From the IMG/VR virus record IMGVR_UViG_3300042934_000980, positions 1 to 64,000 of that record: a DNA stretch of 64,000 nt; one strand, 5' to 3'. Below, piece by piece: positions 41,028-53,359 of this stretch (its first letter is position 1; each line of letters opens with the position of its first letter). This DNA is from a virus. The notes below the pieces were generated by a model that saw nothing but the letters and a program-made list of their open reading frames with translations, was not told the DNA's origin and ran no database searches. A program made the translations under genes and the position numbers.

Positions 41028-42101
41028 ATGGCCATCAAGGACCAAAATTCTGAGGGATGGTTCGAGGGAACCCCAGGAAACCAGAAACCGACTGCCGCCT
41101 TAGACTCAAGTAATGTCGGCGAATTTTTAGATTACGCGTTTCGTGAAAACGGAGGACCGGGATACGGGAGTGCGTTGGTTAACATGCTCCGCGGCATCAG
41201 AATCCTAGGTCCAGGGAACCAGTTAGCGCCCATCCCCGACGACACCATAGGATTAGCGTTTGTTAGCCGGCCGATGCTGAATTTGTCCGATGAAAACGTA
41301 ATCAAACACCCGCAGTTGGCTCCCTTGTACCGGCCGCAGAAAAACACCTTGATGGCTTACATCAAAGGCTTGTTGGACCCCACGTGGGGACGGGGTAACA
41401 GTGGGCTGTCCGATATCTTGGACCCGCTTTACCCCTGGATCGCTCCGGTCACCAACCTGCTCAAGGTCAGTTCCGGGTTTCCGGACCTAAGCCTTGCCAC
41501 CACTAAAAGTGGCAGCGGGTTTCGTAAGGAAGTCCACCAGCGCGCCGCCGGGGTGCTTAAAGTCAACTACGACTTTGAGATGCGCCAAAGCTACCACATG
41601 CCCAAACCCAACGTGCTGCCGTACATGTACGAAGCCTGGGTGCATTACATAGAAGCGGTAACGTTGGGCGATGAAGGGATGGAGCCGTACCCTGAAGCCT
41701 TGATCGAGAACTACCTCGATTACGACTGCCGCATCTACCACATGATTCTGAACAAGAACATGCGCAACATCGAGTGGCTGTTCTGTAACGCCAGCTGCTT
41801 TCCCACCACCTTCCCCTCAGGCGCCTTCAGCACCATTGACCGGACGCAGAACAGTTTGCGCGGTCAGGGTCAAGACGAACTGGAGATTGGGTTTAGCTGC
41901 GTGGGGTTCCGGTTCGGGAACATTCGCATTGCCGACATGTTTAACCGCACCACCCTTAAATTCAATCCAGGTCTGCATCCAAGCGTGCGCGATCAAGCCT
42001 ACCGCAAGCTCGACTTCTCCGAGTACTTTGCCGGGGGCTACGACGTGACGCCGTGGATCAACATCAACACGATGGAACTGGAATACTGGAGTAAGATCTG
42101 A
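41028..42101 (+). CDS. Putative virion structural protein (baseplate-like)
   Basis: 357 aa, starting MAIKDQNSEGWFEGTPGNQ with AAGGA upstream. Pro/Gly/Tyr/Trp-rich, with no catalytic motif or TM. Central MRQSYHMPKPNVLPYMYEAW and C-terminal GYDVTPWININTMELEYWSK are conserved-looking structural stretches. Its stop overlaps the ATG of the 976-aa gene (TGATG), so the two are co-translated and probably assemble together. A tail or baseplate role is inferred from the large partner. Confidence 0.5.
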   Translation: MAIKDQNSEGWFEGTPGNQKPTAALDSSNVGEFLDYAFRENGGPGYGSALVNMLRGIRILGPGNQLAPIPDDTIGLAFVSRPMLNLSDENVIKHPQLAPLYRPQKNTLMAYIKGLLDPTWGRGNSGLSDILDPLYPWIAPVTNLLKVSSGFPDLSLATTKSGSGFRKEVHQRAAGVLKVNYDFEMRQSYHMPKPNVLPYMYEAWVHYIEAVTLGDEGMEPYPEALIENYLDYDCRIYHMILNKNMRNIEWLFCNASCFPTTFPSGAFSTIDRTQNSLRGQGQDELEIGFSCVGFRFGNIRIADMFNRTTLKFNPGLHPSVRDQAYRKLDFSEYFAGGYDVTPWININTMELEYWSKI

Positions 42102-45031
42102 TGGCACTGTCACAAGATGACTTGGAGCGGTTGGCCAACAACCCCCAGCGTGGAATCAACCAGGTCGTAAACGAGATCGAGACCAACTGGTTCAATGGCA
42201 CGGTGCGCCTGAACAGCAAAAGCCACCCGGCGGTGCTGAGCATCGATCTGATCTTGGGCACCACCCATGGCTTTTTGAACCGGCTCAGTGATGCGGTAAG
42301 CAAAACGTTTCTGATGCACGCCCGCAACATCAGCGACCTGTCGCGCAACATGGCCGATGAAGAGCGCTTTGGTCTGTTTGCCAACCCGGCTGACTGTGAA
42401 CTGCAATTGGCCATCTCGGAAGCCAGCTTTTTGGAGATCGCCAAAGATTTCACAATCTCTCAGGGCAAGAGCACCCTGACCTACAAAAAGTTGCTGATCC
42501 CCAAAGACACCGTCATCGAGGTCAATGGCTACAGCTTTGCGGTCAACAACGGCATTGAGCTGCGCTTCAGCGAAAAGTCAGGCTGGCAGGCGGTGTATGA
42601 CGAGGAAACCAACAACCCGTTCGCCCCCATCACCACCAACCTGATCGGCAAAGACAAGAAGGTGGTGGGCAGTACTGTGTACCGGTTGTTTACCATCCCA
42701 GTCCAGCAGCTGCACATCCGGGCCACGGAAAACATCACCTCCAACGAAGGGTCGGGTTGCCGCGGCAGCATCGAGTACACCGACTACCTCTACGGGGTGC
42801 GGGCCTTCCTTATGAAGGACGGGGTACTGAGTGAAGTTCGGGTCACTTACGACCAGGACGTGTTTGATCCTTTGACCCCCACCTTGACGCTGAACATCGA
42901 CACGGTGAACCGGATGTTTCAGTACGAAATCCCGGACGTGTACATCAGCAACAAGCTGGGGGTGGGGAGTCTTCGGATCTACACCTACACCACCAAGGGT
43001 GAACTGACCAAGGATCTGCGTGAGACCCCTTCGCAAGAAGTGGTTCCCAACTATCAGGACTACCGCTACGGTGCGGGCAAGATGGGTGAGTACTCCACGC
43101 CTTTGCGTAATGCCCCAGGGATTGCGTGGGCGGTGAGTAAAGTCACCACAGGTGGCAGTAACCCGGTGGACTTCAACGTGCTCAAGCAGCAGTTGATCAA
43201 TGACCGGCGCAGCCGTGTAATCCCTATCACCGAAAACAACCTGACCGGTAAGGTTGAGAACTACGGCTACAACGCCGTGAAAGCAATCGACTACCTGACC
43301 GGACGCAGCTACTCGGTGAGCAAGGAACTGCCGATCCAAGACAACAAAGGCTTCTACGCCCCGATGTCGTGTTACGTGGGCAGTCACCTGACCTCGGCCA
43401 ACGACTTGGTAGGGGCGGGTGTGGTCATGGACAACGGCAAGCGGATCACCATTCCGCACAACGTGCTGTTTGACATCACCCAGCCCACCTCCAAGCTGGT
43501 GAACAGCCTGACCAAGGACCGTTACTTGGGCTTGAGCAGTGAAGCTTTGGTTGACACCATGGCCGACCTGACGCTGGCCTACACCCCGTTCTACTACGTG
43601 ATGGACCTGACCAGCAACCAAGCCGTGCTCAGGACTTATCACCTGGATGAACCTAAGGTGAACAAGCAAACGTTCGTGGCCGAGAACTCGTTGCTGGGCT
43701 TTGAACTGGGGGTGGGGGCGCTGACCATCGAGCACCAAGACGACGGTTACCTGATCACGGTGCAAACCAAATCCAGCGACGCGTACAAGAAGTTGGACAA
43801 CAACCTCTTGGGGCTGCAGTTGAGTATCACCCCGCAGGACTCCAACAGCTTGGCCAGCATGGCAGGTGAATTGGTGGCCTTAAGCGAGGATGGGGAACGG
43901 ATCTGGGAGTTCCGCCTGAAGAGCAAGTTTGATGTGGACGTCAACGACGTGATCTACTTCACCAACTTCTCGCAGTTCGGTTCGGTCCAACCTTCCACCG
44001 GCACCCCGTTGGATCTGGAGATGACCCTGATCTTCACCTACGCCGGCGACCCTGAGCTGACCAAGTCCGATTCTGACGTCAAGATCGATAAGACCTTGTT
44101 TGAAGACGACATGGTGGCGATCATCGAGACCCGGTACAACGCAACCTTGGGCAAACTGCTGGGCAACCTCTACAGCCGGATCCGTCCGTTGGTGGGGGAG
44201 GCGCAGTACAAGCGTTACGAAGCCGATGTCCCGCAGACGTACACCCAGACCACCATGCGCCGTGAGAACGGCCAGTTGGTGTTTGACGAGGCCGGTAACC
44301 CAATCCCTGAGCACCAAGCCGGCGACATCGTCTACAACGACAACGGCAGTGTGCGGTTGCTGTACCGCCGCGGTGACGTGGTGATAGATGAGAACGGGCA
44401 ACCGGTGGAACTGGCGCCGCGGGACTTGAAGTACCATTGGGACTTTATTGCGTTCGATGGCAACTACTTCTTCTCCAACGACGTCTACGACCAAGAGTTC
44501 GCTCAGGCCACCAAAGACTACTTTGTCGATGTGATCAGCAAAGACATGGAAGCCTTTACCTCGCAAGCACTGGACCGCACTAACCTGCTGTACCAGCCGC
44601 GCAGTAAGCTGGGGTACCAGAAGGTGGTGGTCAACAGCAACTACGAGTCGTTCTTGAAACAGGACCTCTCGTTCACGGTCACCTACTACCTCACGGCCAG
44701 CGGGTACCGTAACCAGAACCTCAAGGACGCACTGAGTAATTCCACCCCGCAGGTACTCAACCAACAGCTGTACGGGTCGAGCACCATTGCCATGTCCAGC
44801 TTTATCACCTCGCTGTTGGGTGATTCCAGTCAGGATGTGGTGACGGCTAAGATCAACGCCTTGTCGGGAGACACGACAGTTGATGTTATCAGTAACGTGG
44901 ACGACCTCACAGGCTTCAGTGTTCGTAAAGAACTCAAACTCAGTGGGGACGGTGGTGTGGCAGTTAAGGAGGCGATTGACATCATCTTCTTGCCGCACGA
45001 CATCAGCACCGCCGGTGTGATGAACAACTAA
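42101..45031 (+). CDS. Giant virion protein, baseplate-wedge-like candidate
   Basis: 976 aa, the second-largest product here. The N-terminal ~100 residues are helical. A long beta-rich part follows, with LTLNIDTVNRMFQYEIPDVY and GVGSLRIYTYTTKGELTKDL (about 270-310), a pattern seen in large baseplate-wedge proteins. A ~100-residue Asp/Asn/Tyr-rich insert (DEAGNPIPEHQAGDIVYNDN) occurs near 730. The C-terminus is helical and Ser-rich. Convergent with a minus-strand operon at a shared terminator. Baseplate assignment is an inference from size, fold pattern and coupling to 41028-42101. Confidence 0.45.
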   Translation: MALSQDDLERLANNPQRGINQVVNEIETNWFNGTVRLNSKSHPAVLSIDLILGTTHGFLNRLSDAVSKTFLMHARNISDLSRNMADEERFGLFANPADCELQLAISEASFLEIAKDFTISQGKSTLTYKKLLIPKDTVIEVNGYSFAVNNGIELRFSEKSGWQAVYDEETNNPFAPITTNLIGKDKKVVGSTVYRLFTIPVQQLHIRATENITSNEGSGCRGSIEYTDYLYGVRAFLMKDGVLSEVRVTYDQDVFDPLTPTLTLNIDTVNRMFQYEIPDVYISNKLGVGSLRIYTYTTKGELTKDLRETPSQEVVPNYQDYRYGAGKMGEYSTPLRNAPGIAWAVSKVTTGGSNPVDFNVLKQQLINDRRSRVIPITENNLTGKVENYGYNAVKAIDYLTGRSYSVSKELPIQDNKGFYAPMSCYVGSHLTSANDLVGAGVVMDNGKRITIPHNVLFDITQPTSKLVNSLTKDRYLGLSSEALVDTMADLTLAYTPFYYVMDLTSNQAVLRTYHLDEPKVNKQTFVAENSLLGFELGVGALTIEHQDDGYLITVQTKSSDAYKKLDNNLLGLQLSITPQDSNSLASMAGELVALSEDGERIWEFRLKSKFDVDVNDVIYFTNFSQFGSVQPSTGTPLDLEMTLIFTYAGDPELTKSDSDVKIDKTLFEDDMVAIIETRYNATLGKLLGNLYSRIRPLVGEAQYKRYEADVPQTYTQTTMRRENGQLVFDEAGNPIPEHQAGDIVYNDNGSVRLLYRRGDVVIDENGQPVELAPRDLKYHWDFIAFDGNYFFSNDVYDQEFAQATKDYFVDVISKDMEAFTSQALDRTNLLYQPRSKLGYQKVVVNSNYESFLKQDLSFTVTYYLTASGYRNQNLKDALSNSTPQVLNQQLYGSSTIAMSSFITSLLGDSSQDVVTAKINALSGDTTVDVISNVDDLTGFSVRKELKLSGDGGVAVKEAIDIIFLPHDISTAGVMNN

Positions 45032-45083: not shown

Positions 45084-45803
45084 TTACTCACCCAGTGGGT
45101 AGTGGTGCAGGTAGTTGGCAAACAGCAGGATCAACTCCATTACCGCTTCGATGGTGTTCAGGCGATATTCCACCGACCCCAACGACATCTCCCAGCGCAC
45201 CGGCATTTCCTTGTCCACAAACGTTTTCAAGGCTTCGCCCACCAGCTGTTCCAGGTTTTCCAAGAACAGGTAGTCCCCTTGTTCAACGATATCCACCGTT
45301 GGACTCAGGTCTTCCCATTTCGCCGCACCGTTGCTCAGCAACTGCGAACGAATCTCGTAAACCCCCCAACCCATGTAACCCAGGAACTTGGCAACTTGCA
45401 TGCGCACGGTATTGATCGTGGTGACCAATTCCGGGGTGCTTTGCACCGGCAAGCCGTTGACATGGTCCAGGACCGCACGGATCTGGCATTGCAGGTCTTC
45501 ACTGGCCTTAACGAAGAACGCTTGGGTGATGACCGTGGTGATGGTTGCCCTCACACGATCGTCCAAGCCTTTCTCCAGGATAATTCGACCGTTTTCCTTG
45601 GGGAAGTTGTTGTACAGCTTGGTCTTGAGCACCATCGCTTCGCGCGGTTCCCAGAAGCGGTTAACAATCTCCACCGCTTCTTCGTAACTCACCCCGTGAC
45701 GCAGTTGGGTCACCAAGCCCTTGAGAGCCCCGCCAACGGCCGACAGCTCCGTTTGGGCATTGGTGCGTGCCTCAACCAATTGCTCGTACGCTGGATGGGT
45801 CAT
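45084..45803 (-). CDS. Hypothetical virion-associated protein
   Basis: 239 aa, entirely helical in appearance (EQLVEARTNAQTELSAVGGAL, IEAVMELILLFANYLHHYPLGE). The C-terminal ~20 residues are hydrophobic enough to be membrane-associated. The start overlaps the stop of the 505-aa inner-body-like gene by 4 bp. It is last in the operon, before the shared terminator. No family recognised. Confidence 0.55.
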   Translation of the reverse strand: MTHPAYEQLVEARTNAQTELSAVGGALKGLVTQLRHGVSYEEAVEIVNRFWEPREAMVLKTKLYNNFPKENGRIILEKGLDDRVRATITTVITQAFFVKASEDLQCQIRAVLDHVNGLPVQSTPELVTTINTVRMQVAKFLGYMGWGVYEIRSQLLSNGAAKWEDLSPTVDIVEQGDYLFLENLEQLVGEALKTFVDKEMPVRWEMSLGSVEYRLNTIEAVMELILLFANYLHHYPLGE

Positions 45804-47317
45804 AGCGGTTTACTCCAGCCGGTTTGTTTGGCCAACTCGTTGAAGTTCTCCTTGATACCAGAGATCTCCAACACCATGTTGGTGTTAGCGGCAGCTTTCT
45901 CGCCAAAGGTACGGGCGTCAGCTTCTGGGATGAACTCGCTGTCAAGCGGGTTACCCAATGCATCGGCGTACGGACTCAGGCCTTCAGCACGGGCTTTGAG
46001 GTTGATCTCTTGCAGCTTTTCCAGATCATCCAACACGCCGTGGTAGTAGTACATCGACGCCCGGCCGTGCCAGTCGATCAGGTTGGTAGCCTGCTGATGC
46101 ACGACCATGAGGCTTTGCGAGACGCTGAAGCAGAACTGGCTGAAGTTACGCGTGGCCACAGTCGCGTCCTGGTAAGCTTGCAGCAGGGCCGGGAAGCTGT
46201 GGTGCGCCGCAATCTCTTGCACCTTGGTGGCATCGTCTTTATCAGCGATCCCGCCAATGGCTTTCCAGTTCACCCCCGACAGGTCCATCTCGTGGGGGGC
46301 AATGGAGACATAACGGGCGTTGAGGTATTGGATCGTGCGCAAGATCTCTGCGACGTTGTTTTTACCCAGCTTAACCCGTTCGGCGGCAACCTGTTCCTGG
46401 ATCTTGGTTTTAACCGCGTTGAATCCGTTCAACAGTTCGTCACTGCTGAAGTTGATCTTGTACAGCGCTTCGTAGAGCTTACCTACGTCGGCTGCCAAAC
46501 CATCCGGGTCCAAACACGCTTCTACTTCCAAGCACGCCTTGGTCAAGCGGTTCAGCTCAGGGGCGTCCTTGGCCGGCACTTGCAGGTCAGGCCGAGTGGA
46601 ACGCAGGCGCGTGCGCTTGTGCTCTTCGGTGATCACCTGCTTGAGCCGCTTGGACGCTTGCACCACCTTGTCGGATGAGTTCTTAAGCTTGGCAATGCAC
46701 TGTTGGATCAACGGCAATGCATCGGCCAGACCTTGGATGGCTTCCTGGTCGCTTTCCACCTTGCTCTTCATGATCAAGACCTGACCCATACGGTCAGTGC
46801 CGGCAGGCAGGTTGCCGATGTAGTTTTCCAGGTTGTAATCAGCCGCTGGGAAACCAAGACCGGACATGGTCTTTTCAAACTCTTTCTTAACGCCGCCGAG
46901 CTTGTCGTTGATAGCCGAGTTGATGCGCTCAGATTTGCGCATACCCAAGATCCGGGCCACCGTGTCCACCACCCAGTTGATCGCCATGCGAATGTACTTG
47001 ATGATGTTTTCGATGAACGTCTTAAAGCCTTCTTTCAGGGTGTGAAAGAAACCTTCTTGACCGGCGCGGGCGTTACGCTCGGACGGGAACGGGTCGTAGT
47101 TACGCGCCCCCGGCAGATTCAGCTGGATGGCAATGCGCTTGGACAGCTTACCCAGGTTAAGCTCTTCGGAGCCTGTGACCATGAGCGTGGCAACGTCCTG
47201 CTGAGTCTCTTTGTAGTACTCAGTCAGGTCGATGCGCTGCTTGTCGTCACCCGGGACAAAGCTGTCAACCGTGTGCCCTGAGGCGAGCTGGGTGTAGGAA
47301 TCGAGGATGTCATTCAT
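45800..47317 (-). CDS. Inner-body-like protein, GQE-G processing site
   Basis: 505 aa. An ~85-residue polar leader ends at GQE (86-88) followed by GFFHTLKEGFKTFIENIIK, an amphipathic, membrane-like helix, then a second hydrophobic helix (MAINWVVDTVARILG). The same order of leader, GxE-G-F and amphipathic helix is found at 31835, 33748, 34852, 36148, 51161 and 52295. The remainder is helical with Lys/Arg-rich loops. Expected to be cleaved by the [S/A/G]-x-E head protease and packed in the head. It overlaps both neighbours. Confidence 0.65.
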   Translation of the reverse strand: MNDILDSYTQLASGHTVDSFVPGDDKQRIDLTEYYKETQQDVATLMVTGSEELNLGKLSKRIAIQLNLPGARNYDPFPSERNARAGQEGFFHTLKEGFKTFIENIIKYIRMAINWVVDTVARILGMRKSERINSAINDKLGGVKKEFEKTMSGLGFPAADYNLENYIGNLPAGTDRMGQVLIMKSKVESDQEAIQGLADALPLIQQCIAKLKNSSDKVVQASKRLKQVITEEHKRTRLRSTRPDLQVPAKDAPELNRLTKACLEVEACLDPDGLAADVGKLYEALYKINFSSDELLNGFNAVKTKIQEQVAAERVKLGKNNVAEILRTIQYLNARYVSIAPHEMDLSGVNWKAIGGIADKDDATKVQEIAAHHSFPALLQAYQDATVATRNFSQFCFSVSQSLMVVHQQATNLIDWHGRASMYYYHGVLDDLEKLQEINLKARAEGLSPYADALGNPLDSEFIPEADARTFGEKAAANTNMVLEISGIKENFNELAKQTGWSKPL

Positions 47318-47726
47318 GGCCGCCCACCAGTTCTTTAACTAGGTAACCCACCAGCGTGTCGAACATTTCGTCTTGGAAAGCACCGTTATCAACTTCATCA
47401 CGGGTGCTGTCCGGGGCAAAGGCACGGGGGGCAGGAGGACGACCGGTTTCCATCAGCTGCTTGCGCAGGGTGTTGAGACGGTACTTGACCGTTTCGAAGA
47501 TCATTGCCCCTTTGATGGGGCTGACCTTGTTCCAGCGGTCCAGTTGCTCCCAGACGTGTTCTTCTTCATCGTCGCTCAAGCTCAAGGTGGAGCTGTGGCG
47601 GAAGTGTGCACGCAGGATGGCGTTGATGTACGGTTCCTGGGCAAAGTTGTTCAGCTCTTCGGGGCAAGTGATCCCCAGATTCAGCAGGTGTTTGCGGTAA
47701 TCGAGTACGTGAGGCAAATGCGACAT
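47310..47726 (-). CDS. Small hypothetical protein
   Basis: 138 aa, helical, with an acidic patch (SLSDDEEEHVWEQLD) and a Pro-rich mid section (GRPPAPRAFAPDS). AAGGA precedes the start. It sits between the metalloprotease and a head protein in the same operon, with an 8-bp downstream overlap. It might be an assembly factor, but nothing shows this. Confidence 0.55.
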   Translation of the reverse strand: MSHLPHVLDYRKHLLNLGITCPEELNNFAQEPYINAILRAHFRHSSTLSLSDDEEEHVWEQLDRWNKVSPIKGAMIFETVKYRLNTLRKQLMETGRPPAPRAFAPDSTRDEVDNGAFQDEMFDTLVGYLVKELVGGHE

Positions 47727-47752: not shown

Positions 47753-49186
47753 TTAGGCTTCGAAGGTTTTGACGTCGTCTTCAGGGCCGGTGTAGGTGGT
47801 GTCCTGGCGACGTGCGGTCAGCGCGGACAGTTTGGATGACAGCAGGTACAGCTCATGGTTGGCCATCACCTGCGTGTAGTGTTCAACTTCGGAGAGCTTA
47901 AAGTCCCCGCCGCTGTACACCCAGCCCATCATGCGGTAGATGACGGTGTTGTCATACCAAGGCTTGAGGGCTTTGTTGATGGTCAGCAGGTTTTCGATTT
48001 CCTTGATCAACTGGCTGCGCGCTTGGCTGTTGAGGTTCTTGTCCTCTTTGAGCTTGGCAATCAGTTGACGCAGGGCGTCGTCAAACCGGCGGTGGTCGGC
48101 GTTGTAGATCCCCGAGTACCCGCGTGAGAAGTAGTCCATCACAAAGATGGTGGTGAACATCACCCCGCTTAGGAAGATAAACGGCCCCAGGCCGCCGGCC
48201 ACGGTAATGGTGGTGACGAAGATCGGCAGCAGCAACAGTTCGGTCAGCACCGTCAGCAATGCAGCGGTCATCAGACTGGTGGTGACTGCGGTGATCAACC
48301 CGACGTCCACCAAAGTGCCGATGGCAGCAACAATGCCTTTATGGCACCCCATGCGGATGGCGTACATGTCAGCCACCACTTCGGAGGACATGCGTTCCAC
48401 CCCCACCGACAAACTGCGACGGGTATTGCGCTGCGCCACCAGTTTGTTGAAGTACAGGATAAAGGCTTCGTCTTTGGCGTCTTTGGCGATGGCTTCAAGC
48501 TCTGCTTGTTTGGCCGGGGTTTCTTCCAGCACCGCCGCTGTTTCACGCAGCACCACCACCCGGTCCTCAGCACGCTCAGCGCTGCGGTAGTAATGCAAGG
48601 CAGCCTTTGCCGCCAAGTTGTCGCTGGCTTGGGTGTGCATCATCATGCAGCCCCCAAATACGTGACCCATTTCGTGGGCCAAGGCACCTGCGATCAAACC
48701 AGCCAGAGGTTCACCGAACTTCTGCACCCGGTCATCAGGGAAGGTCACACTGAGGTTGACGTTGATGTACAGCGTCACCGGTACGGTCTTAAAACTACCT
48801 TTTACTTTACCGGTGGAGTAATCAATATCCCCCTTGAAGACTTTTGACTTGTTATCGCGGAACCAGCGATACAGGGTGGACTTGGTGACGTTGAGGTATT
48901 CGTCAATCCCCTCGTTGTTGAGCACGTGACGCGGGGAGAAGAATCCGGTGTCGACCGCCAGGTTACCGTACTGCTCGAAACGGATCGTGATGTTTTCGAA
49001 ACCACAGTACTCTTCTATGGCTTCCAAGATGTCCTTTCTGGAGTTAGAGCTTAAGACCGGTTTGCCTGTCTCCAGAGAAATGTGTTTTTCAAGCTTTGCG
49101 GTGAGGGTGTCGTAGAAACGGGTCGTTTGAAAATCAATAAACTCGTTCCCACCCACCAGCTTGGGTAGGAAAGCCATAGAAATCAT
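47753..49186 (-). CDS. Membrane zinc metalloprotease (HExxH, M48-like)
   Basis: 477 aa with GGAG 8 bases upstream. The catalytic signature HEMGH is at 171-175 in LIAGALAHEMGHVFGG. About 95 residues on, SSEVVADMYAIRMG (E269, D273) is placed like the third zinc ligand and ADxYA element of M48-type gluzincins. Two hydrophobic stretches (about 288-320 and 322-352) follow, consistent with a membrane hairpin. The C-terminus is soluble. The usual head-maturation protease of phiKZ-type phages is a serine protease, so this would be a second protease. It could act on host membrane proteins or during assembly or entry. It is first in its operon with inner-body-like genes. Substrate unknown. Confidence 0.7.
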   Translation of the reverse strand: MISMAFLPKLVGGNEFIDFQTTRFYDTLTAKLEKHISLETGKPVLSSNSRKDILEAIEEYCGFENITIRFEQYGNLAVDTGFFSPRHVLNNEGIDEYLNVTKSTLYRWFRDNKSKVFKGDIDYSTGKVKGSFKTVPVTLYINVNLSVTFPDDRVQKFGEPLAGLIAGALAHEMGHVFGGCMMMHTQASDNLAAKAALHYYRSAERAEDRVVVLRETAAVLEETPAKQAELEAIAKDAKDEAFILYFNKLVAQRNTRRSLSVGVERMSSEVVADMYAIRMGCHKGIVAAIGTLVDVGLITAVTTSLMTAALLTVLTELLLLPIFVTTITVAGGLGPFIFLSGVMFTTIFVMDYFSRGYSGIYNADHRRFDDALRQLIAKLKEDKNLNSQARSQLIKEIENLLTINKALKPWYDNTVIYRMMGWVYSGGDFKLSEVEHYTQVMANHELYLLSSKLSALTARRQDTTYTGPEDDVKTFEA

Positions 49187-49264
49187 GCGAGTTGCTCCAG
49201 GTGAATTGAGACAAGGACCCTATTAATATAGTGTCAAAAGCAGGCATAAAATGCAGGGTATCCA
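49187..49264. promoter_or_regulatory. Divergent promoter region, CCCTATTAA element
   Basis: A 78-bp gap between the metalloprotease and the DNA polymerase. It contains CCCTATTAA (49218-49226, plus strand) followed by TATAGTG. The same 9-mer occurs before the genes at 57196 and 63960. On the minus strand the same DNA reads CACTATATTAATAGGG, close to the phiKZ early-promoter core. Confidence 0.45.
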
Positions 49265-51094
49265 ATGAACCAACCTAATTCCCCGATAATCGCGAAAGTC
49301 TGCAAATCCGCAGCTCAGTCGATTAACCGTTTTGACAAAAGTAAAGATTTGCTGTGTGCCAAGATTACCAACATCCACGAGGACGGCACACGCTCCAATA
49401 GCTTTGTAGCGCTGGAAAATTACAAGCAACCGTTTTGGATTGTCAAAGAAGACAAACGCAAGTTCAAGCAACATAAAGATTACATTGAAGAGACTGCGTG
49501 CAAGGAATATCGCGCCCCACGGTGTCAACTGGGTTACGCGGTCAGCAAGTACCTGTATGGCAGCCCGGACCGCAGTTACAGCGTGCGTCAGGCCAGTGAC
49601 AACTGCTTTGTGTTTGGGTTGGACCAGACCCCACCGGTGCACTTTAAACGCAAGTTCTTTGAACGGTACGGCGACCATCAGGAAACCGAAGCGTACACCA
49701 TGGCCAGCTACGACGTTGAAACGGACATGTTCAAACCGAACAACCCGGTCATGATGGCGTCGGTGACCTTTAAAGGCAAAGCGTTCTTTGCAGGTGTGCG
49801 CGGCTGGTTTAAGGAAAAGCACAAAGACCGCAAACGCGACCTCACCGATGAGATGATTCTTAACAACCTTAAGGAAGCTGAAGACAAGCACCTTAAGTCG
49901 CACTTGGAGCGCCGTAAGTGTGAGGTGGAGTACCTGTTGGTGGATACTCCGGGTCAGGTGGTTGCAGCCTGCATCCAAAAGATGCACGAGTGGGAGCCCG
50001 ATTGGGTGACTGCGTGGAACGCCCTCTACGACATGACCAAAAACGAAGAAGCCTTGATGGCCGAAGGGTATGACTTGGCGGACGTGTATTCCGACCCACG
50101 CATCCCTTACGAGTACAAGTCGTACAAGTTGCACCCAGGGCGTACGCACAAGGTAAAGGAAGACGGCACCAAGACTCCTTTGGAATGGCAAGAGAAGTTC
50201 CCCACGGTGCGCACCATGGCGTCTTGGCAGTTTGCTGATGCCGGGTCTTTCTACGCCATCAAGCGTCAACCGGTGGTGGGTAAGCTTGAGTCCTACGCGC
50301 TGCAGGCGATTGCAGACCGTGAGAAGGTCCCAGGTAAGCTGTACACCGAAGAAGGCCGAGACCATGACTTGGGCTCTCCTCAGTGGCACCGCTACATGCA
50401 GGAGAACTGGCCGTACATCTACGCCATGTACAACATCTGCGATAACTTTGTCATTGAAGAGATCAACGAGAACACCAACGACTTCTCGCTCTCGCTCCCA
50501 ATGCTGCTGAAGTACTCGGAATACTTCAACTACGTCTCTCAGCCAAAACTGATCTCCGACACCTTGTCATTCATGGCGCGTGAACGCGGTTATGTGTGGG
50601 GCTCGACGCCGGGCAACCGGGACAAGAGCTTCAGTGAGAAGCTGCCGACACTGGGTGACTGGATTGCGTTGCTGGACACTGAGAAGAACGCCTCGTTTGG
50701 TAAGGCGCTCTTTGCAGGCCTTGACGACGTGTTCAGTAACGGGCGCACCGACACCTCAGACATTGACGTGGAAGGCGCGTACCCGCACGTAACGCTTGCA
50801 CTGAACGCCAGTAACCGAACCACCATGATGGAGGCTTACCAGATCCAAGGGGCTGACCCCATGAAGTTCCGCGAGATTGGGGTGAACTACGCCAGCAGCA
50901 CTGAAGCCAATGCGTTTGGTCTGTGTCATGATCTGTTCCGTTTCCCGCAGCCGGACAAACTCAAAGAGGTGTTTGAGGACCGCATGAACCAACTGGGTCT
51001 TATTGACGAGTTGGCCATGCTTAAGAAGAACCTGGAAGCCAAGCGACAAATCGCCACAGAAGAAGACCTTACTGAAATCCTAGAAGTGGCATAA
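49265..51094 (+). CDS. Family B DNA polymerase, exonuclease plus partial palm
   Basis: 609 aa. All three 3'-5' exonuclease motifs are present: Exo I SYDVETD (D150, E152), Exo II TAWNALYDM (N252, D256) and Exo III YNICDNFVIEEI (Y389, D393; very like the T4/RB69 type). Polymerase motif A, DIDVEGAYPHV (D501), follows. Only about 100 residues remain, and I see neither motif B (K-x-x-x-N-S-x-Y-G) nor motif C (Y-x-D-T-D). The catalytic palm must therefore be completed by another gene outside this window, or these motifs have diverged beyond recognition. The gene ends at a strong terminator with no continuation downstream. It replicates the phage genome with the helicases nearby. Confidence 0.8.
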   Translation: MNQPNSPIIAKVCKSAAQSINRFDKSKDLLCAKITNIHEDGTRSNSFVALENYKQPFWIVKEDKRKFKQHKDYIEETACKEYRAPRCQLGYAVSKYLYGSPDRSYSVRQASDNCFVFGLDQTPPVHFKRKFFERYGDHQETEAYTMASYDVETDMFKPNNPVMMASVTFKGKAFFAGVRGWFKEKHKDRKRDLTDEMILNNLKEAEDKHLKSHLERRKCEVEYLLVDTPGQVVAACIQKMHEWEPDWVTAWNALYDMTKNEEALMAEGYDLADVYSDPRIPYEYKSYKLHPGRTHKVKEDGTKTPLEWQEKFPTVRTMASWQFADAGSFYAIKRQPVVGKLESYALQAIADREKVPGKLYTEEGRDHDLGSPQWHRYMQENWPYIYAMYNICDNFVIEEINENTNDFSLSLPMLLKYSEYFNYVSQPKLISDTLSFMARERGYVWGSTPGNRDKSFSEKLPTLGDWIALLDTEKNASFGKALFAGLDDVFSNGRTDTSDIDVEGAYPHVTLALNASNRTTMMEAYQIQGADPMKFREIGVNYASSTEANAFGLCHDLFRFPQPDKLKEVFEDRMNQLGLIDELAMLKKNLEAKRQIATEEDLTEILEVA

Positions 51095-51160: not shown

Positions 51161-52267
51161 TTACTTCTTGCCGCCCGCTTCGTGGACGAAGAACATCTTG
51201 TTGATCGCGTTGGAGTATTCCTTTTCCGCTTCGATCGACTTCTTGATGTACGTCGCAACCGCAGCGCTGACCGACATGATACCGCGCAGGTACTGCAGTT
51301 CTTTGGTGTGCTTGTCGTGGCCGTCAGAACCAGGCTTGGTACTGCCCAACTGTTTTTCGACGTCGGACATGGCGCCTTTGATCTTGCCGGTGTAAGCGTT
51401 GCACTCACGAATCAGCTGCCCCAGCGCCTCGATCGATGCAGTGATCTCGGTCTGAATATGCTTACCGTCGTCAAGGGTTTTGATTTCACCGGACAAGGCC
51501 GAAGTGCTGGCAGATGTCTTGTGGTGTTCCACAAACTTCTTGATCACGCTGAAGAAGCTCTCTGCCAACGTTTTCGCAGCGGCGCTTTCGTCGTTGTGGT
51601 TGACCCCCAGCGAAGAACGCTTGTTGCCTTCCTTCTCGAACCAGGTCAGGAAACTGCTGTTCAGGCGCACAACCTTTTCAGCCGCCGCTTTGACCTTACG
51701 ACCGCCTTTCTCGTTGTAGGTGCCGATCTTGGAATAGATTTCCTTGACGACCTTTTCAGCCGCAGCCTTACGCTCTGCAGGCTCACCTTCTACCAAGCTG
51801 GCCAACCAATCGCGGGTCTTTTGAGGGTCGACGTTGTGCTCGCCGTTTTCAATCGCGTGGGCCATGGTTTTGGCTTTTGCAATGGCTTTGTCAGCACCCT
51901 CGGCATTGACCGAAGCTCCAGCACTTACCAGCGCCTCAGCGTTAGCCTGTACTTCTTGCTTGGCTTCTTTAACCTCTGCAGCCGCATCGCGGTTGAAGAA
52001 GAATTCCCAGACGCTTTTAAACATCTTGACGATGTAATCCCACACCGCCTTGGCGCCTGAAGCGATCGAGCCGAAGAAGCCTTCATTACCAGCACGGTAG
52101 TTGTTGGCACCCAGCACGCCTGCCGCGTAAATCTGGGTGGGGGTCAACACCATGCCTTCAGTACCGGACACGGTATCGTTCAACGCATCAAACATGATCT
52201 CGACATGCGGACTGTCCGGGATGCTGTCATCCAGTTCGTCCGTGGGGTAGGTGTTCAGGGTGTCCAT
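51161..52267 (-). CDS. Inner-body-like protein, tandem paralogue A
   Basis: 368 aa. It shares PHVEIMFDALNDTVSGTEGM (about 20-39) nearly exactly with the next gene upstream (52295-53359). It also shares GNE-GFFGSIASGAKAVWDYIVK (60-62 site; amphipathic then aromatic helix ending FFFNRD). Two protease-type sites occur, SGTE (34-37) and AGNE (59-62). The remaining ~270 residues are Lys/Glu/Ala-rich helices. The two genes arose by tandem duplication. Expected to be cleaved and packed in the head with the inner body. It ends at the 51104-51139 terminator. Confidence 0.7.
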   Translation of the reverse strand: MDTLNTYPTDELDDSIPDSPHVEIMFDALNDTVSGTEGMVLTPTQIYAAGVLGANNYRAGNEGFFGSIASGAKAVWDYIVKMFKSVWEFFFNRDAAAEVKEAKQEVQANAEALVSAGASVNAEGADKAIAKAKTMAHAIENGEHNVDPQKTRDWLASLVEGEPAERKAAAEKVVKEIYSKIGTYNEKGGRKVKAAAEKVVRLNSSFLTWFEKEGNKRSSLGVNHNDESAAAKTLAESFFSVIKKFVEHHKTSASTSALSGEIKTLDDGKHIQTEITASIEALGQLIRECNAYTGKIKGAMSDVEKQLGSTKPGSDGHDKHTKELQYLRGIMSVSAAVATYIKKSIEAEKEYSNAINKMFFVHEAGGKK

Positions 52268-52294: not shown

Positions 52295-53359
52295 TTACAG
52301 GCCAAAGACCGAGTTGACCGTTTTGCTCAGGACAACCTGGGCCTTCATCGAGCGCTTGAGGTACTGCGCCACGTTGGTGGAGAACGTCAGGATGCCACGC
52401 AGCACAGTCAGATGACCGGAGGTGTGGGTGCCTTTGGCGTCTTCCTTGGCCAAGCTCTCGTAGAACTTGATCTCGTTGTTGAGCGAGCTGGTGTGCGACT
52501 TGACTGTGTCGACCAAAGCCTTGTTCGCCGCGATTTCTGCTTGCACCTGGGCGTGAATGGCTTGAGCCTCAGCTACCGATTTGATCTCGGTATGCTTTTC
52601 AAGATCGGCAACTGTCTTGCTGGCATGACCCAAGTACTTGGCCACATCACCCACGATGGCGTGCACCAGCTTGGTCACGTCCGCATCGATGTTGCCGTTG
52701 ATCTTGGTGTCAGCACCTTGGCACAAGGCGATGAACTTCTTGTTCAAGTCCACCACGTTTTCCACGGTGTGCTTAAGGCTGTACTGGCCTTTCTTGTTGA
52801 CCTTGGGCATTTCATTGACCAAGTTCTTAAGCGCGGCTTTCTTTTCAGCCACGGTGCCGCTTTTCAGGGCTTCTTTACCTTCGGTCATGAACTTGTCGAG
52901 GGCTGCCTGATCGCCAGTGGGAATGTCTTCCAGCTTGGCGGCAGTGGAGCTGACCTTTTTCAAGGCTTCGTTGACAGCTTCTTCAGAACTTGGGCTGACC
53001 ACCGCGTCCTTGAAGTGCTGCTCGGAATCTTTTGCTTCTTTCTTGGCTGCTTCCGCTTGGGCAGCGCCGTCGCGGTTGAAGAAGAAACCCCAGACCGACT
53101 TGAACATCTTGATGATGTAGTCGTAAACAGCTTTGGCGCCAGAGGCAACAGAACCAAAGAAACCTTCGGTACCGGCGACGGACGTAGCGGGGCGGTAACC
53201 GTTGGCCGACAATACACCCGCGGCGTAATGCTGGGCGGGGGTCATCCCTTCAGTCCCGGTTACAGTATCGTTGAGGGCGTCGAACATGATCTCGACGTGG
53301 GGGGCTTCGGGGATGTCAGCGCCGGCATCGTCTTCGTGGGTGATGTCAAGTGGTTCCAT
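52295..53359 (-). CDS. Inner-body-like protein, tandem paralogue B
   Basis: 354 aa, the duplicate of 51161-52267. It has the same PHVEIMFDALNDTVTGTEGM segment, a GTE site at 35-37 and a second at 63-65 (AGTE-GFFGSVASGAKAVYDY). The helical bodies have diverged much more than the N-terminal 90 residues, so the leader, processing sites and amphipathic helix are the conserved module. AGGA precedes the start. 27 bp separate it from its paralogue, and both are likely expressed late with the 219-aa gene upstream. Confidence 0.7.
   Translation of the reverse strand: MEPLDITHEDDAGADIPEAPHVEIMFDALNDTVTGTEGMTPAQHYAAGVLSANGYRPATSVAGTEGFFGSVASGAKAVYDYIIKMFKSVWGFFFNRDGAAQAEAAKKEAKDSEQHFKDAVVSPSSEEAVNEALKKVSSTAAKLEDIPTGDQAALDKFMTEGKEALKSGTVAEKKAALKNLVNEMPKVNKKGQYSLKHTVENVVDLNKKFIALCQGADTKINGNIDADVTKLVHAIVGDVAKYLGHASKTVADLEKHTEIKSVAEAQAIHAQVQAEIAANKALVDTVKSHTSSLNNEIKFYESLAKEDAKGTHTSGHLTVLRGILTFSTNVAQYLKRSMKAQVVLSKTVNSVFGL

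Follow-up and report, generated by a model that had tools for sequence, protein, structure and literature searches.

A predicted M48-like zinc metallopeptidase conserved in phiKZ-group phages, probably packaged in the head and possibly acting in the next host

Introduction

What would a zinc metallopeptidase do among the virion genes of a phage? The question is raised by an open reading frame for a 477-residue protein (positions 47753-49186, minus strand) in a 64,000-nucleotide stretch, here called the window, taken from a virus record of 220,495 bp (IMGVR_UViG_3300042934_000980). A preliminary description, made from the letters alone, proposed an M48-like, membrane-bound zinc protease with two transmembrane stretches, which it regarded as unexpected in an operon of virion genes and thought might cut host envelope proteins, assist delivery of the genome or process a virion protein.

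Such an enzyme had in fact been reported. Iyer et al. (2021) described a conserved, uncharacterised zincin-like metallopeptidase in group 1 jumbo phages, citing AMR59696.1 (PMC7824862); this is SEGD1_047, the orthologue of SPN3US gp45, and the window gene is a further member of that known, uncharacterised family. Members are annotated in several records as peptidase, CAAX prenyl protease, BepA-like or M48 lipoprotein protease. The SprT-like, ArdC-like and MoxR-associated metallopeptidases of other jumbo phages are likewise zinc peptidases, but they occur patchily, belong to other families and are not this syntenic head gene (PMC7824862). The SPN3US papers of 2017 and 2023 treat gp45 as a head protein, and no metallo- or zinc terms were found in either. 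In the literature that we searched, mostly its freely readable part, no functional study of PHIKZ084/gp84 or of a Chimalliviridae metalloprotease was found. New here are the joining of the head-protein and peptidase literatures, a prohead-cleavage site that runs through the family, a tyrosine in the active-site plug motif, and the position of a hydrophobic hairpin.

Results

Family membership and gene order

The 477-residue protein gave a full-length match to phrog_2767 (E=2.6e-86; residues 7-455 against profile positions 8-441 of 442). The named relatives nearest to it at this gene are those of Pseudomonas phage EL and related phages, with EL gp52 48% identical, and identity to the phiKZ and SPN3US members is approximately 15-20%. 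The family profile identified a single copy each in phiKZ (gp84), EL (gp52), SPN3US (gp45) and RAY (gp286), all of which have gene order, motifs and an N-terminal cleavage site in common with the window protein; compared with these relatives, the latter has a longer C-terminus and a stronger double hydrophobic stretch. Using tblastn, 94 phage records were matched by the window protein at E<=0.01 and 227 by phiKZ gp84 at E<=1, among them phages of Pseudomonas, Erwinia, Salmonella, Vibrio, Aeromonas, Klebsiella, Serratia and other hosts. No relatives were found in the bacterial genomes searched with the window protein, and few or no loci were recovered from viral contigs searched with distant family members.

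The neighbours of the metallopeptidase gene are virion genes, as the preliminary description had supposed, and their order is kept among relatives: a divergent upstream gene is followed by the metallopeptidase, a gene of about 140 codons and the counterpart of gp86/gp47, in most cases with one further gene before those on the opposite strand begin. In the window, the next gene downstream encodes a 138-residue virion structural protein (47310-47726, minus strand; phrog_14520 and synteny) at the position of EL gp53 and phiKZ gp85. It is followed by a 505-residue head protein (45800-47317, minus strand; phrog_14541) at the position of phiKZ gp86 and SPN3US gp47, a candidate ejection protein (PMC5694885), and by a 239-residue protein encoded by the fourth gene of the cluster (45084-45803, minus strand). 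Beyond the cluster lie two plus-strand genes in conserved order, a putative tail tube gene (41028-42101; PF23971, E=1e-49) on the strand opposite to the head genes, and a gene for a 976-residue phrog_3248 protein (42101-45031) whose start it overlaps.

On the upstream side, a 78-bp gap (49187-49264) separates the metallopeptidase gene from a divergent DNA polymerase gene (49265-51094, plus strand). The divergent arrangement is retained in most relatives, and in most of them the upstream neighbour is likewise a DNA polymerase gene. In phiKZ its place is taken by gp83, which carries the annotation of a structural head protein, with the DNA polymerase-annotated gp82 adjoining it; EL and other relatives have a DNA polymerase-annotated gene where phiKZ has gp83.

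Conservation of the predicted active site

The predicted zinc-binding and catalytic motif is HEMGH (residues 171-175; 48662-48676, minus strand), and EVVAD (residues 269-273; 48368-48382, minus strand) would supply the third zinc ligand, E269, together with D273. Both elements had been pointed out in the preliminary description; in relatives HExGH is invariant, as are the E and D of the second motif. We aligned 24 diverse relatives, with identity down to 15%; numbered without Met1, the invariant columns are G129, H170, E171, G173, H174, E268, D272, G279 and R366, with A271, R277 and Y360 nearly so. Loss of the HExxH motif in homologues had been named beforehand as one of two observations that would count against a protease, and the motif is kept throughout: HExGH, ExxA/SD and [Y/H]x5R are present together in all 50 sequences collected. 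With three spaced motifs in every sequence, a chance match can be ruled out, and the enzyme is unlikely to be a dead one; catalytic competence of the family is well supported, as judged by conservation.

The third motif, Y361-N-x4-R367 (48086-48106, minus strand), corresponds in the profile alignment to the common active-site plug HPx4R of M48 proteases, in which the His is the fourth zinc ligand (PMC7950410). In the phage family the Arg (24 of 24) and the spacing are kept, the Pro is replaced by Asp or Asn, and the His by Tyr in 23 of the 24 aligned relatives. The one aligned member with His at this position, as in true M48 enzymes, is that of Serratia phage KpGz_1. The change from His to Tyr may alter how a packaged enzyme stays inactive.

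Relation to the M48 peptidases

Of the Pfam families, M48 (PF01435) alone had matches to several members, 4 of the 24, with scores of 17-20 bits that lie below the gathering cut-off of 20.3; the best of these was the Proteus phage 10 member at 20.0 bits, and SPN3US scored 17.7. Pfam and NCBIfam gave no useful match to the window protein, M48 included, and the Pfam M48 and S77 models matched nothing in its own genome. When the family profile was compared with all PDB sequences, ZMPSTE24 and Ste24p ranked at the top (E=0.0012), with both HExGH and ExxAD aligned for ZMPSTE24; this match is weak taken alone, because unrelated exportins follow closely.

Profiles were also compared with each other, using hhalign. 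Against four E. coli M48 proteins the HExxH helix was matched with E=1.8e-5, and against 38 M48 domains drawn from Pseudomonadota genomes the probability was 93, with E=3e-7 and a score of 57.5. Reversed controls scored 13, and no block-permuted decoy exceeded 44.9; the decoys retain short blocks of the HExxH motif, which itself accounts for part of the score. In the unconstrained alignment all three motifs fell in register, with low confidence outside the HExxH region. The preceding strand also aligned with M48 in the profile comparisons, as did the spacing of the plug.

Foldseek searches of the PDB with the full AlphaFold2 model and with a trimmed SPN3US catalytic domain (pLDDT 77-79, from shallow alignments) returned matches at noise level only and no M48 chain. 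Absence of a structural match to gluzincins was the other observation named beforehand as refuting, and it stands against an M48 assignment, although the best matches were noise and the models came from shallow alignments. The predicted order of strands and helices is compatible with the M48 fold, and against viral models Foldseek returned the family itself together with models annotated 'Peptidase' (E=5e-4) and 'Beta-barrel assembly-enhancing protease' (E=0.02). The gluzincin layout proposed at the outset is supported by the sequence profiles and finds no counterpart in the structural search. Like the M48 peptidases (Ste24/ZMPSTE24, HtpX, BepA, LoiP, YcaL), the phage protein has HExxH, ExxAD, the preceding strand and the plug-motif spacing; unlike them, it has Tyr for the plug His, falls below the Pfam cut-off and, going by its SPN3US relative, is packaged in a virion. 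Since the plug reads Y-(D/N)-x4-R, with His only in the divergent KpGz_1 member, we describe the protein as M48-like rather than as a member of M48.

A hydrophobic hairpin between the ExxAD helix and the plug

Kyte-Doolittle windows identified hydrophobic stretches at residues ~284-302, 309-327 and 332-350, and AlphaFold2 placed helices in the same region, at 296-318 and 334-357. Together these outline a predicted hydrophobic hairpin (residues ~284-350; 48137-48337, minus strand) that lies between the helix carrying the ExxAD glutamate and the plug motif. HtpX has its hydrophobic hairpin between the motifs, whereas that of the phage protein follows the ExxAD helix. The two transmembrane stretches of the preliminary description thus have a basis in the window protein, but they do not extend to the family as a whole: two or three strong stretches are found in some relatives only, and many have one.

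Head location and prohead processing

By mass spectrometry of purified virions, SPN3US gp45 is a mid-abundance constituent of the head, from which the prohead serine protease gp245 removes the first 20 residues by cutting after ASE-20 (PMC5694885, PMC10052503); the phiKZ gp84 record is annotated as a structural head protein. The studied relative is found in purified heads, and the membrane-bound state proposed earlier is at this point a conjecture. In our alignment, GNE-15|FIDFQ of the window protein coincides with ASE-20|SIGFQ of SPN3US gp45, which predicts a serine-protease site at G13-N-E15 (49142-49150, minus strand) and removal of about 15 residues. [S/A/G]-x-E occupies this column in 23 of the 24 aligned relatives as scored by script, and in all 24 after an upstream shift of the start codon in the exception (L024; SGLE|FMDF). 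A search of the genome with the sequence of phiKZ gp175, the prohead serine protease, found a homologue away from this locus (G000:117814-118452; E=1.4e-21), so that the metallopeptidase is indeed a second protease beside one of phiKZ type. Given the conserved site and the prohead protease homologue, packaging and processing are very likely kept in the window phage. phiKZ gp175 and SPN3US gp245 (S80) are, like the metallopeptidase, proteases of these heads, but they are unrelated serine enzymes, and the metallopeptidase is their substrate (PMC5694885).

A related motif, AG-x-E|GFF followed by a similar stretch, is common to three head-type proteins encoded on the minus strand at 45800-47317, 51161-52267 and 52295-53359, with sites near residues 88, 62 and 65, respectively; the latter two are tandem paralogues (phrog_21850). 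The motif resembles GGNE|FID of the metallopeptidase and is consistent with a local prohead-protease consensus.

Discussion

The reading that we favour, with no better than even confidence, is that an M48-like protease is packaged in the head, carried into the next host and active at its inner membrane early in infection. Packaging is its well-supported part; ejection, membrane insertion and the substrate are what we infer. The zinc metallopeptidase would be built into the phage head, targeted into the prohead by its short N-terminal propeptide, and would leave the capsid alongside the DNA and other ejection proteins. Its hairpin would then insert into, or lean on, the host inner membrane, and the enzyme would cut a host envelope protein or a phage-injected protein early, at the stage when a vesicle of membrane origin encloses the genome. 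Delivery of the genome into a vesicle derived from the inner membrane is described for the phiKZ group (review PMC13282480). The gene is syntenic with that of the gp86/gp47 ejection-protein candidate; SPN3US gp47 has a transmembrane segment, and its mutant particles are intact and normal-looking but non-infective. phiKZ gp84 is not among the proteins validated as injected, nor was it reported as tested (PMC10449902). The difficulty of explaining how a hydrophobic hairpin could be carried within a DNA-filled head also counts against this reading.

The same head location would suit a second maturation protease, activated by the serine protease, whose substrates in the prohead would be proteins of the capsid or the inner body. 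This role was put forward for the family by Iyer et al. (PMC7824862), and a relative is both found and processed in the head (PMC5694885), the gene being conserved together with the virion type. The published cleavages, however, leave it little to do: all 14 SPN3US head cleavage sites fit the A-X-E rule of the serine protease, 42 head proteins were judged uncleaved by that enzyme (PMC10052503), and LSxE is the enriched motif in phiKZ semi-tryptic peptides (PMC10449902). These sites and this motif reveal no visible work for a second head enzyme, with the reservation that rare other cuts could be missed because both sets of studies sought cuts after glutamate. Maturation would moreover have no need of the hairpin. 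We consider such a role unlikely, and the mapped SPN3US cleavages make the earlier suggestion that the enzyme processes a virion protein less likely. The hairpin would find a use if the protein sat in the inner membrane at sites of prohead assembly, anchoring or releasing proheads, and became trapped in the head; SPN3US proheads that lack the serine protease do remain bound to the inner membrane (PMC10052503). Yet the conserved cleavage takes off only a short N-terminus and spares the hairpin, so that a membrane anchor would not be freed, and mid abundance in finished heads (SPN3US gp45) also fits an assembly factor poorly; we regard this alternative as quite improbable.

Two further readings deny the protein an enzymatic role altogether, and conservation makes both unlikely. 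Many virion proteins reuse enzyme folds, and the replacement of the plug His by Tyr would suit a structural head protein that has merely kept the fold of a protease. Against this, the catalytic Glu, both His, the Glu ligand and the Asp are invariant while the remainder falls to 15% identity, the opposite of the pattern of a dead enzyme; the probability of this reading is low, a little below that of an assembly factor. That a membrane or structural protein has come to contain HExxH by chance could be argued from the window protein, which alone has no significant Pfam match, and from the negative Foldseek result, but the joint conservation of three spaced motifs and the M48 profile matches already contradict it and leave it hardly credible. 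The absence of visible work in the head, a hairpin that processing does not remove, an ejection-candidate neighbour and delivery into a vesicle together favour ejection and action at the inner membrane.

In a bolder form of the ejection reading, the early membrane vesicle around the incoming genome would depend, for its formation, stability or opening, on proteolysis at the inner membrane by the injected M48-like protease with its Tyr plug; this seems distinctly unlikely to us at present. The heads of phiKZ-group phages carry dozens of proteins, most of them without an assigned role, and the metallopeptidase is among the few with a predictable chemistry. A change of HExGH to HQxGH is one obvious point mutation expected to inactivate it, which makes its role directly testable in SPN3US or phiKZ.
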